Assembly: GCA_016214745.1 (NCBI GenBank)
Contig: JACRNW010000010.1
Location: 1 to 33,609, forward strand
Length of the DNA: 33,609 nt
Direction of reading: 5' to 3'
Source of the DNA: Candidatus Falkowiibacteriota bacterium
Lineage (GTDB): Bacteria > Patescibacteriota > Patescibacteriia > XYB2-FULL-38-15
Part shown: positions 8,218 to 21,816 of the stretch, one piece after another
Numbering within the stretch: the stretch's first letter is position 1
Layout of the letters: each line of letters starts with the position of its first letter
The notes under the pieces: generated by a model
Database searches by the model: none
Seen by the model: the letters and a program-made list of their open reading frames with translations, nothing else
Told to the model about the DNA's origin: nothing
Program-made: the position numbers and the translations under genes

Positions 8218-9159
8218 CTACCGGTTATTTTTAAATAATTGGCTTTGTTGATGGTTGACAACACTATAAATTTTTCGGTATTCCAGCTCGATATCTTTGT
8301 TCTCAAGGTGAGTGTAGATCTGCGTGGACCGGATTGAGGCGTGACCCATCATTTCTTTTAAATACATCAGCTTAATATTATTTTTCACTCCCAACGTGGC
8401 AAATCCGTGCCGGCAAGAATGGGGAGTGATTTTTTTGTCTATGCCGCATTTCGCGCGTATCCGGCGAAATGTTTTTTGCACTGCATGATGGAAAAGGCGG
8501 TCGCCAAATTTATTTGAGTCAAGAGCGATGAAAAGGGCAATAGATTCCATATTTTTGTGATCAAGCAGTCTTTGCCTCAATTCAATCCATTTCGCGAGCA
8601 GGCAGTTTGTCGCGTCGTCCCAAAAAATCTGCCGTTTGTGATTTTTTCTTTTAAAAGTTTTTACTTCCGCAGTTTTCATTTCAAGGTTCATATCGGAAAC
8701 ATTGAGGCTTAAAAGTTCCCCGAGCCGCAGGCCGGTGGCGAAAAGCAGGGAAATAGCTGTCTTGTCGCGAAGATCTTTTGGAAATAACTCGTCAAAGCAA
8801 GAAATCATTTTTAAAAATTCGTCGGGGAAAAGACACTCGTGGGATTTAACATCATTCCGGTTTGGCAAGGGAATCAGGGTTTCGGGAAAATTTACACGCT
8901 GTTGCTGATACAGCCATCGCCAGAGGGTGCGCACGGTTCCGAGATAACTATAGCGAGTTCCACTATGCAGGCCGCGATTCTCAAGCCACAAATGATATTC
9001 TGGAAAATCCGGCATAGTCATTTTTAAAATTTCTTTTTTTCGCAGATCCAGCCAAATTTCAAACTGGCGCAATGCCCAAAAGTATGATGATACGGTTGCT
9101 CCCGAATGGCCGGCGCGAAGCCATATCAAGAATTGGTTGATAATTTCGTGGTTGACCAT
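8218..9159 (-). CDS. Tyrosine recombinase (prophage integrase, XerC/D-like)
   Basis: A 313-residue enzyme with an N-terminal SAM-like core-binding domain (about 1-95) and a C-terminal catalytic domain. The catalytic set is visible: Arg145 in ATGLRLGEL, Lys within KTFKRKNHK (about 167-175), His247 and Arg250 in HSCRH, His273 in MGHAS, and the nucleophile Tyr282 in TQIYTHL. These enzymes cut and rejoin DNA through a 3'-phosphotyrosine. Its place at the end of the tail module argues for the phage integrase; a host XerC/D dimer-resolution role is the alternative. A promoter lies at 9200-9227. Confidence 0.85.
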   Translation of the reverse strand: MVNHEIINQFLIWLRAGHSGATVSSYFWALRQFEIWLDLRKKEILKMTMPDFPEYHLWLENRGLHSGTRYSYLGTVRTLWRWLYQQQRVNFPETLIPLPNRNDVKSHECLFPDEFLKMISCFDELFPKDLRDKTAISLLFATGLRLGELLSLNVSDMNLEMKTAEVKTFKRKNHKRQIFWDDATNCLLAKWIELRQRLLDHKNMESIALFIALDSNKFGDRLFHHAVQKTFRRIRAKCGIDKKITPHSCRHGFATLGVKNNIKLMYLKEMMGHASIRSTQIYTHLENKDIELEYRKIYSVVNHQQSQLFKNNR

Positions 9160-9261: not shown

Positions 9262-9290
9262 TTGAAACAAATTTTATTTAATGATATAAT
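9262..9290 (+). promoter_or_regulatory. Promoter of the HTH gene (leaderless transcript predicted)
   Basis: TTGAAA (9262-9267), 17-nt spacer, TATAAT (9285-9290). The expected transcription start is at or near 9298, the ATG itself, so the mRNA would be leaderless. This also rules out the TTG at 9262 as start codon. Confidence 0.6.
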
Positions 9291-9297
9291 TAAAGAT

Positions 9298-9480
9298 ATG
9301 ATAAATAAACACGTTAGGCAGAGTATTTTGTGCCTTTATTTTTCCCCTAAATTTAAAGGAAAAAAGGATGATGATACCACCATAACTGATATTGCTAAAG
9401 CCCTAAAAATTTCTCGCCCCACTGTTTATAAAGCTATTAAAAAATTTCTGCGGGAAGAGTTAAAAAAGTTTACACATTGA
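9298..9480 (+). CDS. Small helix-turn-helix DNA-binding protein
   Basis: A 60-residue protein, nearly all HTH: TITDIAKALKISRPTVYKAIKKF (about residues 28-50) is a classic resolvase/Hin-like or HTH_23-type helix-turn-helix, followed by a basic tail. No catalytic domain is present. It is divergent from the integrase, with shared repeats in the gap, so it is a candidate repressor or excisionase-like regulator. A start at TTG 9262 is rejected because it lies in the -35 box. Function is inferred from the HTH and position. Confidence 0.6.
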   Translation: MINKHVRQSILCLYFSPKFKGKKDDDTTITDIAKALKISRPTVYKAIKKFLREELKKFTH

Positions 9481-9732: not shown

Positions 9733-10785
9733 ATGAGATTATCTGAATTTGACTTTAATCTTCCGAAAAATCTAATCGCTCAAAAACCGGCTTCGCCGCG
9801 AGATGCCTGCCGGCTTATGGTTTTAGATCGTGAAAAAGGATCTATTAATCATGATCGTTTTTATAACCTTGGCGAATATCTACGGCCCGGCGATGTTTTG
9901 GTTTTAAATAATTCAAAAGTTTTGCCGGCAAGATTGATGGGGAAAAAAGAAACCGGCGGCAAGGTTGAAATTTTACTTTTAAAACAAATTTCTCCGGCGT
10001 CGTGGGAATGTCTTGTTGGTTCTGTGCCGGTCGCGAAGCAAGTGGGCTTGAAAATAAAGTTTGGCGGGAAATTAGTTGGCGAGATTACAAAAAGAGCAGG
10101 GGATACGGCGATTATAAAATTTAATTTGAGCGGCACGAAATTAATGGAACAAATTTTAAAAATCGGTCAGCCCCCGACTCCGCCCTATATTAAACGATTG
10201 GCAAAAGGCGCGGAATACCAAACCGTGTTTGCGGAAAAATTGGGATCAGTCGCCGCGCCAACCGCCGGGATGCATTTTACAAAAAAGTTATTGGCGAAAT
10301 TAAAAAAGATGGGCGTGCAGATTGAATATATTACGCTCCATGTCGGTCTTGGCACTTTTCAGCCGGTAAAAGAAAATGATATTACCAAACATAAAATCCA
10401 CAGCGAATATTTTGAACTGGATAAAAAAACCGCCGAGCGGTTGAACGTAGCAAAACGGGATGACAGAAGAATTATTGCCTGCGGGACAACCACGGTGCGG
10501 GTTTTGGAACATTGCGCCCGTCAAGAAGGAAAATTGCAAGCTCAAAAAGGTTACACAAATATTTTCATTTACCCCCACACCAAAATTTTTGGTGTGGGGG
10601 TGTATCCCGGCTATAAATTCAAATTTATTGACGCTCTGCTCACAAATTTTCACGTGCCGAGATCAACTTTGATTATGCTCGTCGCGGCTTTCGCCGGGAA
10701 AAAATTTGTTGATAAGGCTTATCAAATTGCGATAAAAAAGCGTTATCGGTTTTATTCGTTTGGAGATTCAATGTTAATAGTTTGA
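9733..10785 (+). CDS. queA: S-adenosylmethionine:tRNA ribosyltransferase-isomerase
   Basis: A 350-residue enzyme that moves the ribosyl part of SAM onto preQ1 at tRNA position 34, making epoxyqueuosine. Family signatures are LSEFDFNLPKNLIAQKPASPRDACRLMVL at the N-terminus, GKVEILLLK, APTAGMHFT, LHVGLGTFQPV and the C-terminal NFHVPRSTLIMLVAAFAG and YSFGDSMLIV. The usual NIFIYPGYKF block is interrupted by 11 extra residues (282-292, HTKIFGVGVYP) encoded by a palindromic element; the frame is kept. No SD is visible before the ATG. A second, diverged copy of its 3' end follows the stop. Confidence 0.93.
   Translation: MRLSEFDFNLPKNLIAQKPASPRDACRLMVLDREKGSINHDRFYNLGEYLRPGDVLVLNNSKVLPARLMGKKETGGKVEILLLKQISPASWECLVGSVPVAKQVGLKIKFGGKLVGEITKRAGDTAIIKFNLSGTKLMEQILKIGQPPTPPYIKRLAKGAEYQTVFAEKLGSVAAPTAGMHFTKKLLAKLKKMGVQIEYITLHVGLGTFQPVKENDITKHKIHSEYFELDKKTAERLNVAKRDDRRIIACGTTTVRVLEHCARQEGKLQAQKGYTNIFIYPHTKIFGVGVYPGYKFKFIDALLTNFHVPRSTLIMLVAAFAGKKFVDKAYQIAIKKRYRFYSFGDSMLIV
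10571..10601. repeat. Palindromic element family 1, copy inside queA
   Basis: Perfect 15-bp arms ACCCCCACACCAAAA / TTTTGGTGTGGGGGT around a single T. The insertion is 33 nt long, in frame, and flanked by TAC/TAT (part of the Tyr-Pro codons), suggesting a short target duplication. Confidence 0.75.
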
Positions 10786-10872
10786 TTTTTAAAAAAATAT
10801 AGATTTTTACCCCCACACCAATGCATTGGTGTGGGGGTGTACTCTTTCGGCGACGCGATGTTTATTGTTTAG
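10786..10872 (+). pseudogene. Duplicated queA 3' end carrying a palindromic element
   Basis: Directly after the queA stop, in the same frame, the DNA reads FLKKYRF, then 11 residues encoded by a second palindromic element (LPPHQCIGVGV), then YSFGDAMFIV and a stop. Without the 11 residues this is KKYRFYSFGDAMFIV, matching the real queA C-terminus KKRYRFYSFGDSMLIV. It is a remnant of a second, diverged copy of the gene end. It has no start and is separated from queA by one TGA. Confidence 0.7.
10809..10838. repeat. Palindromic element family 1, copy in the queA remnant
   Basis: A perfect 30-bp palindrome with arms ACCCCCACACCAATG / CATTGGTGTGGGGGT. Together with the flanking bases it makes a 33-nt in-frame insertion in the duplicated queA end, the same length and outer sequence as the copy in queA. 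Confidence 0.75.
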
Positions 10873-10877
10873 AATTT

Positions 10878-10970
10878 CCCCCTCTTAAGGTAAGAGGGGA
10901 TTAAGGGGAGTTATGAGTAGTATTCCGCGCTTCATAACCCCTCCCAACCTCCCCTTATCTTAAGGGGAGG
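10878..10970. repeat. Long imperfect inverted repeat (39-nt arms)
   Basis: Arms 10878-10916 and 10932-10970 match at 29 of 39 positions as inverted copies, and every mismatch is a transition; the spacer is 15 nt. Each arm also holds its own hairpin (CCCCTCTTA...TAAGAGGGG and CCTCCCCTTA...TAAGGGGAGG). It resembles a MITE/REP-type element. Confidence 0.55.
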
Positions 10971-10975
10971 TTTTT
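10948..10975 (+). terminator. Terminator-like hairpin upstream of the first cassette
   Basis: CCTCCCCTTA (10948-10957), loop TCT, TAAGGGGAGG (10961-10970), then five T residues. It is part of the long inverted repeat and could end queA transcription. Confidence 0.5.
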
Positions 10976-18756: not shown

Positions 18757-21700
18757 ATGGTCGATTTATTAAAAGATTTGAACCAAGCCCAGAAGGAGGC
18801 CGTGTCTCATGAAGACGGGCCGTTGCTTATTGTTGCCGGCGCGGGGACGGGAAAGACAACAGTCATCACGCGGCGGCTGGCTTTTTTGATTTTGGAAAAG
18901 AAAATAAATCCCCACACCTTCCCGTCAGATATTCAATCTCAAGATAAGGATATTTTATCTCCGCACCCCAGCCGTCTCAAGGAGTCGGGACAGGGTATTC
19001 GAGAAGGTGTGGGGATAAAGCCGGACGAAATACTGGCCTTAACTTTTACGGAAAAAGCGGCCGGGGAAATGGAAGAGCGGGCGGACCAGATTTTGCCTTA
19101 CGGTTATGTTGACCTTTGGATTTCCACCTTTCATTCTTTTTGCGAGCGAATTTTAAAAGAACACGCCATTGATATCGGCCTACCGGGAGATTTTAAATTA
19201 TTAAATCAAACCGAGCAGTGGCTTTTAATGCGGCAAAATTTGGAGCGTTTTGATTTGGATTATTATCGGCCGCTCGGCAATCCGACAAAATTTATTCATT
19301 CACTTTTAAAACATTTCAGCCGGGCGAAGGATGAAGAAATTTGGCCGGAAAATTATTTGGATTACGCAGAAAATTTAAAATTAAACAAAGACAGCGCCAT
19401 TGCCGAAGACAAAGATCGTTTGCTTGAAGTAGCGAGCGCGTATCACGCTTATCAACAATTGCTTTTGGAAAATAACGCTCTGGATTTTGGCGATTTGATA
19501 AATTATACCTTAAAACTTTTTCGTACCCGGCCGGCGATTTTAGAAAAATACCGGCAAAAGTTTAAGTATATTTTGGTTGACGAATTTCAGGACACAAATT
19601 GGGCGCAGTACGAATTGATAAAAATGATCGCTTCGCCCAAAAATAATTTAACGGTCGTTGGCGATGATGACCAATCAATTTATAAATTCCGCGGCGCCTC
19701 AATTTCAAACATCATGCAGTTTAAAAATGATTTTCCCTATGCCCGAGAAATCATTATCACCGACAATTATCGCACGAAGCAAAACATTTTGGATTTAGCG
19801 TATAAATTTATAAAACAAAATGATCCGAATCGTTTGGAAGCGAAATTAGGGATTGTAAAAAAATTAGCGGCGCAGCGCGAAGGCGAAGGAATTATTGAAC
19901 ACCTGCACTACAAAACTGCCGATCAAGAAGCGCGGGCTGTCGCTGAAAAGATTTTGGAGTTGAAAAAAATCCCTCGGCCTTCGGCCACTCCCTTTGAAAA
20001 AGGGAGAGAAGAAATCGGCTACCAGGATTTTGCTATTTTGGTCCGCGCCAACAATCAGGCGGAAATGTTTATGGGAGTGTTTGACCAATATGGAATTCCA
20101 TATCATTTTTTGGCCTCGGCCGGACTTTATTCCAAACCGGTTATTTTGGATATTATCGCTTATTTAAAAACTTTGGATAATTACCACGAGTCCACCGCGC
20201 TTTACCGAGTTTTGAATATGCCGTTTGTTGGTTTGGCCTACGACGATCTTATCGCCCTAAATTTCGCCGTTCGGAGGAAAAATTGGTCGCTTTATGAGGC
20301 GATGAAACATGCCGCCGCGGTTGGCGTTTCTCCCGATGGTTTGCGAAAGATCAATAAGGTTTTAGGATTTATAGAAAAACACACGGCTATTGCCCGCGAG
20401 CGGGGAATAAGCAAGGTTGTTTTTAAATTTTTGGAAGATTTTAGTTATTTGGCAAATTTAACAAAACGTGCCGAGAAAGGCGATCTGCGCGCCGCGGAAG
20501 AGATAAGTTACGTCAATCAATTTTTGAAAAAAATAGAAGGGTTTGAAAGAGCGAATCCGGATAAGTCGGTCAAAAATTTTATGATCGGACTGGAGATGGC
20601 CTTGGAGTCGGGTGAGGAAGGATCGCTTGCCGGAAATTTTGACGAAGGTCCGGACACAGTAAAAATTTTAACGGTACATGGCGCCAAAGGTTTGGAGTTT
20701 AAATATGTTTTTATCGTGAATTTAGTTGATCTGCGTTTTCCGTCCACGGACAGAAAAGAACCGATTGAAATGCCGACCGCTTTGGTTAAAGAGATTTTGC
20801 CCGAAGGCGACATTCATCTTGAAGAAGAGCGCCGGCTTTTTTACGTGGCTATGACGCGGGCGCGCGACGGAGTTTTTTTAACTTCAGCGAGCGATTACGG
20901 CGGTCAGCGTAAGAAAAAACTTTCGCGGTTTTTAGTGGAACTTGGTTTTGTGGAAGAGGAGTCAAAAGCGCCGACCGGCCAGGTTTATTTTGACGAAGAA
21001 AAAATGGTCTCGGAAAGCGGACGAGCGACAAAAAAATATTGGTTGCCGAGTAAATTCAGTTTTACTCAGCTCAAGGCATTTGAAACTTGTCCTTTGCAAT
21101 ATAAATTTGCCCACGTTTTAGTTGTCCCAACGCAGGGAAAATTTACTTTCAGTTTTGGAAAAACCATGCACAGCACTTTGCAGAAATTTTTTGATCAAAT
21201 ATCAAAAAAAGAAAATCATAAACAAACTGATCTTTTCGGCGGGAAGGGGAGCGGAGAAGCGGCGGCGCCGACAGAGGATGAACTTTTAAAAATTTACGAA
21301 GAGACTTGGATTAATGATTGGTATGACAGTAAAAGTCACGAAGACGAATATCGAAAACTTGGCCGCAATAAATTTCGGGATTTTTATAAATTACATGAAG
21401 GTAAATGGCCGAAAACAAAATATTTAGAAAAGGGTTTTAATTTGCGCGTGGGCGAATGCACGATGCGCGGCGTGATTGACCGAGTGGACGAAGTCCCGGG
21501 CGGAATTGAAATTGTTGATTACAAAACCGGCAGCGTGCCCAAAGATGAAAAATATTTGGATAAAGACCAGCTTTTAATTTATCAAGCCGCGGCTCGCGAA
21601 GTGCTCGGCGAAAATCCGGTTTTATTGAGTTATTATTATTTGGACGAAAATAAAAAAATGTCATTTTTAGGAACTGACGAGGAGATCGGGGAAATTAAAG

Positions 21701-21816
21701 AAAAAATTGCCGCGACAATTCGGGAAATTAAAAAAAGCGAATTTCCTCCGAAGCCGAGTTTGTTTACTTGTAAAAATTGTGATTTTAAAGATATTTGCGA
21801 ACATCGCGTCTTATGA
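18757..21816 (+). CDS. UvrD/PcrA-type superfamily-1 helicase fused to a RecB-family nuclease
   Basis: A 1019-residue enzyme. Walker A is GAGTGKT (28-34); motif II VDEFQDTNW, motif III-like VVGDDDQSIYKFRGA and the late VAMTRARDG motif are all present, so ATPase and helicase activity are expected. The C-terminal 250 residues are a PD-(D/E)xK nuclease with Asp908, Asp921 and Lys923 (VDYKTG), and Cys778, Cys1005, Cys1008, Cys1014 that match the Fe-S staple of AddB-type nucleases. The role is likely double-strand break end processing and repair. Two in-frame palindromic insertions (residues about 51-87 and 404-420) lie outside the motifs. Confidence 0.88.
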   Translation: MVDLLKDLNQAQKEAVSHEDGPLLIVAGAGTGKTTVITRRLAFLILEKKINPHTFPSDIQSQDKDILSPHPSRLKESGQGIREGVGIKPDEILALTFTEKAAGEMEERADQILPYGYVDLWISTFHSFCERILKEHAIDIGLPGDFKLLNQTEQWLLMRQNLERFDLDYYRPLGNPTKFIHSLLKHFSRAKDEEIWPENYLDYAENLKLNKDSAIAEDKDRLLEVASAYHAYQQLLLENNALDFGDLINYTLKLFRTRPAILEKYRQKFKYILVDEFQDTNWAQYELIKMIASPKNNLTVVGDDDQSIYKFRGASISNIMQFKNDFPYAREIIITDNYRTKQNILDLAYKFIKQNDPNRLEAKLGIVKKLAAQREGEGIIEHLHYKTADQEARAVAEKILELKKIPRPSATPFEKGREEIGYQDFAILVRANNQAEMFMGVFDQYGIPYHFLASAGLYSKPVILDIIAYLKTLDNYHESTALYRVLNMPFVGLAYDDLIALNFAVRRKNWSLYEAMKHAAAVGVSPDGLRKINKVLGFIEKHTAIARERGISKVVFKFLEDFSYLANLTKRAEKGDLRAAEEISYVNQFLKKIEGFERANPDKSVKNFMIGLEMALESGEEGSLAGNFDEGPDTVKILTVHGAKGLEFKYVFIVNLVDLRFPSTDRKEPIEMPTALVKEILPEGDIHLEEERRLFYVAMTRARDGVFLTSASDYGGQRKKKLSRFLVELGFVEEESKAPTGQVYFDEEKMVSESGRATKKYWLPSKFSFTQLKAFETCPLQYKFAHVLVVPTQGKFTFSFGKTMHSTLQKFFDQISKKENHKQTDLFGGKGSGEAAAPTEDELLKIYEETWINDWYDSKSHEDEYRKLGRNKFRDFYKLHEGKWPKTKYLEKGFNLRVGECTMRGVIDRVDEVPGGIEIVDYKTGSVPKDEKYLDKDQLLIYQAAAREVLGENPVLLSYYYLDENKKMSFLGTDEEIGEIKEKIAATIREIKKSEFPPKPSLFTCKNCDFKDICEHRVL
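18904..19019. repeat. Palindromic element family 1, long copy inside uvrD
   Basis: 14-bp perfect arms ATCCCCACACCTTC (18908-18921) and GAAGGTGTGGGGAT (19003-19016), flanked by direct repeats ATAAA (18904-18908 and 19015-19019). The insertion length is 111 nt, or 37 codons, so the helicase frame is kept. Confidence 0.75.
19969..20015. repeat. Palindromic element family 2, copy inside uvrD
   Basis: CTCCCTTT (19988-19995), loop GAA, AAAGGGAG (19999-20006), preceded by AATCCCTCGGCC and a small GGCC-TTC-GGCC hairpin. It encodes about IPRPSATPFEKGREEIG, extra to the normal helicase sequence, in frame. Confidence 0.65.

Follow-up and report, generated by a model that had tools for sequence, protein, structure and literature searches.

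The window analysed here, a stretch of 33,609 nt from a Candidatus Falkowiibacteriota genome, contains a queA gene that is interrupted in frame by a short palindrome, a second copy of this palindrome just downstream, and a longer relative within a helicase gene. The features are as follows:

9733..10785, + strand: queA ORF, 350 aa (Pfam PF02547, E=1e-125)
10568..10571, + strand: left tetranucleotide TTTA beside the queA palindrome
10572..10600, + strand: 29-nt palindromic element CCCCCACACCAAAATTTTTGGTGTGGGGG, in frame in queA
10601..10604, + strand: right tetranucleotide TGTA beside the queA palindrome, with one mismatch to TTTA
10810..10837, + strand: second palindrome copy, 28 nt, core AATGCATT, TTTA/TGTA flanks, 24 nt past the queA stop codon
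10840..10872, + strand: second, displaced queA tail TAC..TAG (YSFGDAMFIV*)
18757..21816, + strand: UvrD/PcrA-like helicase ORF with a 37-residue insert
18905..18908, + strand: TAAA, left member of the direct repeat around the helicase element
18909..19015, + strand: 107-nt relative of the palindrome, ends TCCCCACACCTTC..GAAGGTGTGGGGA, in frame in the helicase ORF
19016..19019, + strand: TAAA, right member of the direct repeat around the helicase element

Just upstream of queA, a tyrosine recombinase of the phage integrase family is encoded on the minus strand (8218-9159), followed by a small HTH ORF (9262-9480). Several long inverted repeats (CCCCTCTTAAGG.., CCTCCCCTTATCTTAAGGGGAGG) are located downstream of queA at 10876-10975.

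A sequence-only reading of this DNA had described a palindrome at 10571-10601 that adds 11 residues to QueA. The element is indeed present in frame, with arms that are 100% complementary over 10572-10600; the wider interval adds a symmetric A/T. The insert length of 33 nt given in that reading holds as well, since 29 nt of palindrome plus a 4-nt repeat make up 33 nt or 11 residues. The border repeat is, however, not only the proposed TAY triplet but the tetranucleotide pair TTTA/TGTA with one mismatch, which changes GTT to GTG and is synonymous in the queA frame. The palindrome and one 4-nt repeat encode residues 281-291 (PHTKIFGVGVY). None of the 19 relatives aligned around this site (46% identity up to the same genus, including the sister genome G001) has these residues; all read ..FI-YPGYKF. 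The solved QueA sequences 1VKY and 1YY3 also lack them, and in the alignment the 11 extra residues fall at exactly that site.

The insert splits the nearly invariant IYPGYKF motif of QueA. An AlphaFold2 model of the protein had a mean pLDDT of 83.8, with values below 50 for residues 279-290 and mostly high values for the remainder. The insert itself appears there as a loop with a low score (pLDDT about 36), the remainder of QueA being well predicted, and it may thus represent an added loop that is kept in the finished protein. It is likely that QueA tolerates the insert despite the split motif.

The queA locus also shows a duplication. The queA reading frame closes with its current tail at 10785, and a second tail follows within 10786-10872, 3′ of the second palindrome. 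With 24/30, this displaced tail resembles that of the sister genome more than the tail in use does (21/30). The doubled tail could result from recombination at the palindromes with the queA of a relative, or from misassembly. Since this one gene combines two palindromes with a duplicated tail, queA could also be decaying or an assembly chimera, with the insert irrelevant to a working protein, all the more as the sequence is a metagenome-assembled genome (MAG) in which a 28-nt repeat could misjoin contigs. Against this view, the queA frame is intact over 350 codons and the gene is under constraint, with a dN/dS of 0.07 to G001 at saturated synonymous sites (dS). Furthermore, among the matches listed, 20 other ORFs with in-frame copies belong to known, mostly housekeeping, families. 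We therefore consider a decaying or chimeric queA quite improbable.

The palindrome is repeated at unrelated sites in its own genome (G000, 923 kb). Of the two findings that would have spoken against the sequence-only reading, residues common to all related QueA proteins and a lack of further copies in the genome, neither was made. Counting the queA copy there are five exact copies, two of them within the window; four are of the 28-nt form with the core AATGCATT, and only the queA copy has 29 nt. Variant copies are present at C15:21984 and C15:80258, one of the variants being the symmetric form CCCCCCACC..GGTGGGGGG, and longer relatives were found on C5, C9, C10 and C16 as well as in the window. 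Within the window, seven arm-like 10-mers were observed, while 0.63 are expected. When the window was scanned blindly for inverted 10-bp arms accompanied by exact 4-bp repeats, the helicase element and one low-complexity chance match came up. The helicase element follows the same arithmetic as the queA copy: 107 nt plus 4 nt give 111 nt or 37 codons, inserted immediately ahead of KPDEILALTFT. A function of the arms as DNA uptake sequence was ruled out, as almost every one of the 17 arm sites in G000 is part of a paired element.

Scanning one genome per species revealed at least 116 stretches with the palindrome. Among the matches listed these were largely from Patescibacteria, but Omnitrophota, Myxococcota, Spirochaetota and others were also represented. 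Within the class of the window's own genome the distribution is patchy (21 of 381 genomes). Exact 4-bp direct repeats flanked 48 of 115 copies among the matches listed, compared to 8.3-8.6 expected and a maximum of 20 in 5000 permutations, and in the same copies the flank match was confined to offset 4. When copies with TTTA or TAAA as left flank were excluded, exact repeats still occurred in 19 of 72 listed copies versus 1.7 expected. The duplicated tetramers among the matches listed were mostly TTTA/TAAA (29), followed by CAAG, TCAA and TGAA, and the target preference was strongly asymmetric, TTTA being far more frequent than TTAA. Some repeats are imperfect, for example TTTA/TGTA at both copies of the queA locus.

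A single MAG from a Deltaproteobacteria/Myxococcota record (G381) has 133 arm sites. The stretches read from this genome contained 48 short-palindrome entries at many sites, 28 of them with exact 4-bp repeats. In several nested cases (L247, L248, L250, L251, L258, L264) a 29-nt palindrome lies within an element of roughly 105 nt, which itself occurs at several sites with TTTA/TAAA repeats.

Alternatively, the palindromes might be intrinsic terminators or regulatory structures that came to resemble each other by convergence: as RNA, the hairpins are stable (−23 kcal/mol), and the same pattern in IMG/VR viral contigs consists mostly of terminator-like, extended stems. Only 2 of 46 of these viral matches had direct repeats, so that palindromy by itself does not produce them. 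The 4-bp repeats, the dispersal of near-identical sequences and the in-frame sites in conserved genes contradict convergence for the copies inside genes, and we give it hardly any credence as a general explanation, although intergenic copies may secondarily act as terminators. The presence of terminal inverted repeats and of a target-site duplication, as in miniature inverted-repeat elements (MITEs) and other derivatives of elements with terminal inverted repeats (TIRs), suggests that the palindrome is, or was, mobile.

For the frame test on copies within protein genes, both flanks had to be open for at least 100 codons, and the frame on each side was chosen regardless of the element. Among the matches listed, the same frame continued across the element in 15 of 18 such copies (p=2e-5). 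The length plus 4 was divisible by 3 in 16 of the 18 copies deep in ORFs but in 21 of 55 elsewhere (Fisher p=2.5e-4; matches listed). By family scan, the hosts are PolX (two), FolD, LigA, UppP, GatB, TilS (two copies), RuvA, a P-type ATPase, TruB, NAD(P)H-hydrate dehydratase/epimerase, a KsgA-type methylase, RNA pseudouridine synthase, PCMT, MPG, a histidine kinase, PrmC, a prephenate dehydratase-aminotransferase fusion, an M16 peptidase and an HI0933-like protein. Depending on the frame, the peptides read PHTKxFGVGV, TPTPxxLVWGF or PPHQxLWCGG.

The queA hairpin is bordered by matching Tyr codons (TAC/TAT) and splits a conserved motif, and it is conceivable that the insert is excised from the RNA or hopped over by the ribosome, like the mitochondrial byp elements. 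Such removal would not need lengths divisible by 3, yet 15 of the 18 in-gene copies among the matches listed keep the frame, and the common forms of the palindrome are free of stop codons. Preservation of the frame argues that the insert is translated and not spliced or hopped over, which makes removal very improbable; the 11-residue peptide is probably part of the translation product. Stops do occur in some cores (TATGCATA, TAATTA). The idea that freedom from stops is an adaptation was rejected: composition-matched shuffles were 100% stop-free, and because a half-arm of only A and C makes this automatic, the lack of stops is no evidence of selection.

A 313-bp element, TTGA-CCCCCACACCTTTCGTTTTATT ... 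-TTGA, was reached through unpaired arms in the genome G382; its sole gene encodes a GIY-YIG nuclease. GIY-YIG loci were read in 22 genomes, and bounded elements of 281-313 bp were found that have terminal inverted repeats of the palindrome type, 4-bp repeats and, as sole gene, a GIY-YIG nuclease of about 85 aa:

G387: 286 bp, CCTA/CCTA, GIY-YIG element
G382: 313 bp, TTGA/TTGA, GIY-YIG element
G000:C3 (own genome): 281 bp, CGCG/CGCG, GIY-YIG element with TIR CCCCCACACCAATTATGTT
G381: 299 bp, TAAA/TAAA, element with a decayed GIY-YIG gene
G385: 284 bp, TTTA/TGTA, GIY-YIG element

The catalytic domain of the nuclease is PF01541, and the nearest solved chains are UPF0213 proteins. The window's genome has 13 GIY-YIG matches. 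One copy with decayed ends is common to G000 (C2) and G001 (C61); the GIY-YIG copy shared by these two genomes has a dN/dS of 0.03. The element in G000:C3 (19627-19907; L345 1828-2108) has the same ends as the palindrome in the same genome, as is expected of the parent of a MITE, and appears to be autonomous. The TIR extensions of parent and palindrome also agree, both in G000 (CCCCCACACCAAT) and in G381 (CCCCCACACCAAA). A second TIR family of GIY-YIG elements has the ends YCCCGTTAGA. Inverted plus exact direct repeats scoring at least 9 were found for 12 of 60 GIY-YIG genes and for none when flanks were swapped; about 45 of the 60 had no clear ends. In a tree of the nucleases the two TIR families lie on opposite sides of one branch (0 of 500 shuffles as low), and for the unlabelled rows L321 and L341, close to the CCCCCACACC rows, at least one such arm was found afterwards. 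In IMG/VR, a search with the GIY-YIG protein gave 12 weak relatives, none of them with palindrome-type arms. These sequence comparisons make GIY-YIG elements of 281-313 bp with the same ends the probable parent of the palindrome.

Another possibility is that a conventional transposase (DDE or HUH/Y1) mobilises the palindromes as its MITEs, with the GIY-YIG gene as mere cargo in some copies. Inverted repeats with 4-bp duplications are typical of DDE elements, targets like TTTA and TTGA resemble those of IS200/IS605, and Y1 genes were present in 11 of 13 genomes searched. Yet no arms were found around the Y1 genes examined, and none of these loci showed a REP-type Y1 tyrosine transposase bounded by arms. 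GIY-YIG is the only gene in the bounded 281-313-bp elements across several TIR families, and a symmetric DDE complex would hardly be expected to prefer targets as asymmetric as these. Among the positions listed for G381, long-range arm pairs that would indicate a conventional autonomous element were lacking. We regard a conventional transposase as an unlikely, though serious, alternative. G381 is the genome with most copies found, and yet its assembly holds only a decayed GIY-YIG copy; an intact, repeated copy could be missing because this is a MAG.

Our preferred reading, to which we assign a probability of roughly 0.7, is that the palindrome represents a non-autonomous mobile element derived from the GIY-YIG elements, which inserts with a 4-bp duplication and survives in genes when in frame. 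It would consist of two terminal inverted repeats (CCCCCACACC plus 2-4 nt) joined head to head with little else, and such palindromes would be the smallest units retaining both ends. The GIY-YIG nuclease would recognise the inverted-repeat ends, possibly in the form of an extruded hairpin, and cut the target with a 4-nt stagger, while host repair would finish the join; insertion would create a 4-bp target duplication, with TTTA/TAAA-like tetramers preferred. Copies could settle in genes and yield a short peptide on translation because 29 nt plus 4 nt give 33 nt and the A/C-only half-arms are stop-free, and frame-shifting copies would be purged by selection. The weakest link is the role of the nuclease, which we presume to be that of mobiliser rather than cargo. 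Slx1-type GIY-YIG enzymes cut branched DNA. On the other hand, a nuclease that is cargo would likewise produce the association of TIR type with GIY-YIG lineage.

The sites of the GIY-YIG elements follow a pattern of their own. In three cases an element adjoins the 5′ end of a tRNA, and in two of these, among them tRNA-Ile in G000:C3, the tRNA predicted by ARAGORN extends 3 nt into the element, so that the terminal Gs of the element rebuild the acceptor stem. In a search for the empty site, tRNA-Ile was contiguous in G001 and G002, but this supports insertion weakly, because a tRNA rebuilt by the element would look the same on its right side. GIY-YIG elements with other ends are found at start codons (L327, L336, L369, L342), where their last base appears to complete ATG; in YCCCGTTAGA-type cases it is the terminal A, together with a TGAA or TGGA repeat, that seems to recreate it. 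In L319 and L318, GIY-YIG genes adjoin rnpB-like sequence with long G/C-rich inverted repeats on either side; Rfam confirmed RNase P RNA in L319 only, not in L318. With somewhat less confidence than for the palindrome itself, we lean towards a new class of bacterial transposable element as an overall explanation. In this class, units of about 280-313 bp would be mobilised at their TIR ends by the nuclease of about 85 aa with a 4-bp duplication, would be harmless at tRNA 5′ ends, at start codons and near rnpB, and would spawn in-frame hairpins of 26-35 nt in essential genes.

The likeness to Rickettsia palindromic elements (RPEs) proposed in the sequence-only reading stands as an analogy. According to reviews, RPEs (Ogata et al. 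2000, 2002) are about 150 bp long, carry a CGTC tag at one end and are found in Rickettsia; like the present elements, they are palindromic repeats in frame in unrelated, apparently functional genes (PMC10969869, PMC3733652). The palindromes described here are nevertheless a different, shorter family: they have 26-35 nt (larger relatives up to about 107 nt), 4-bp direct repeats, a putative GIY-YIG parent, another sequence with symmetric CCCCCACACC ends and no CGTC tag, and they occur in Patescibacteria and other phyla. REPs associated with RAYT/TIRYT are also palindromes of 20-40 nt, some of them in ORFs, and their mobilisation in trans is attributed to a small enzyme; they have GTAG or CGTC at one end, and one TIR family has GGGG motifs (PMC3733652). 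In contrast, GTAG/CGTC is lacking here, and the ends are symmetric with matching tetranucleotides (TTTA, TAAA, CAAG, TCAA, TGAA and similar). MITEs of insertion sequences, described as 70-300 bp long (PMC3733652), share inverted-repeat ends, target duplication and the lack of coding capacity, but the present family goes down to a bare hairpin and its partner is a GIY-YIG gene element, not a known IS. GIY-YIG homing endonucleases and Slx1/UPF0213 proteins have the same catalytic domain PF01541, while the elements described here possess their own inverted repeats and 4-bp direct repeats and use varied sites. GIY-YIG genes are also known from non-intron insertions in rRNA genes of CPR bacteria and, according to the authors of that study, seem to fall outside spread by homing; its text does not mention inverted repeats, and the passages considered draw no tie to palindromes or in-frame insertions (PMC11270868).

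In the open literature (subscription journals lay largely outside the search) we found no description of CPR palindromes or of inverted-repeat GIY-YIG elements in bacteria, and both are provisionally considered novel. If our reading is true, GIY-YIG would be a further enzyme class that drives inverted-repeat transposons, the abundance of small GIY-YIG genes in Patescibacteria would be explained in part, and mobile DNA would supply essential proteins with short peptides across many phyla beyond Rickettsia. Were the GIY-YIG parent set aside, the palindrome on its own would count as a further variant of the RPE/MITE kind already known. Selfish DNA as a source of protein segments is directly testable with the 11-residue inserts in queA, ligA, gatB or ruvA. 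The queA gene of the sister genome G001 (L012) carries another repeat, HPVIARSVATRQSHSDRAGDCFASLA, which is likewise in frame and precedes the insert position of the window by about 20 residues, and the MATE-type ORF downstream of it begins with a similar repeat-like stretch (VILRSKATKNL..IPRYARND).
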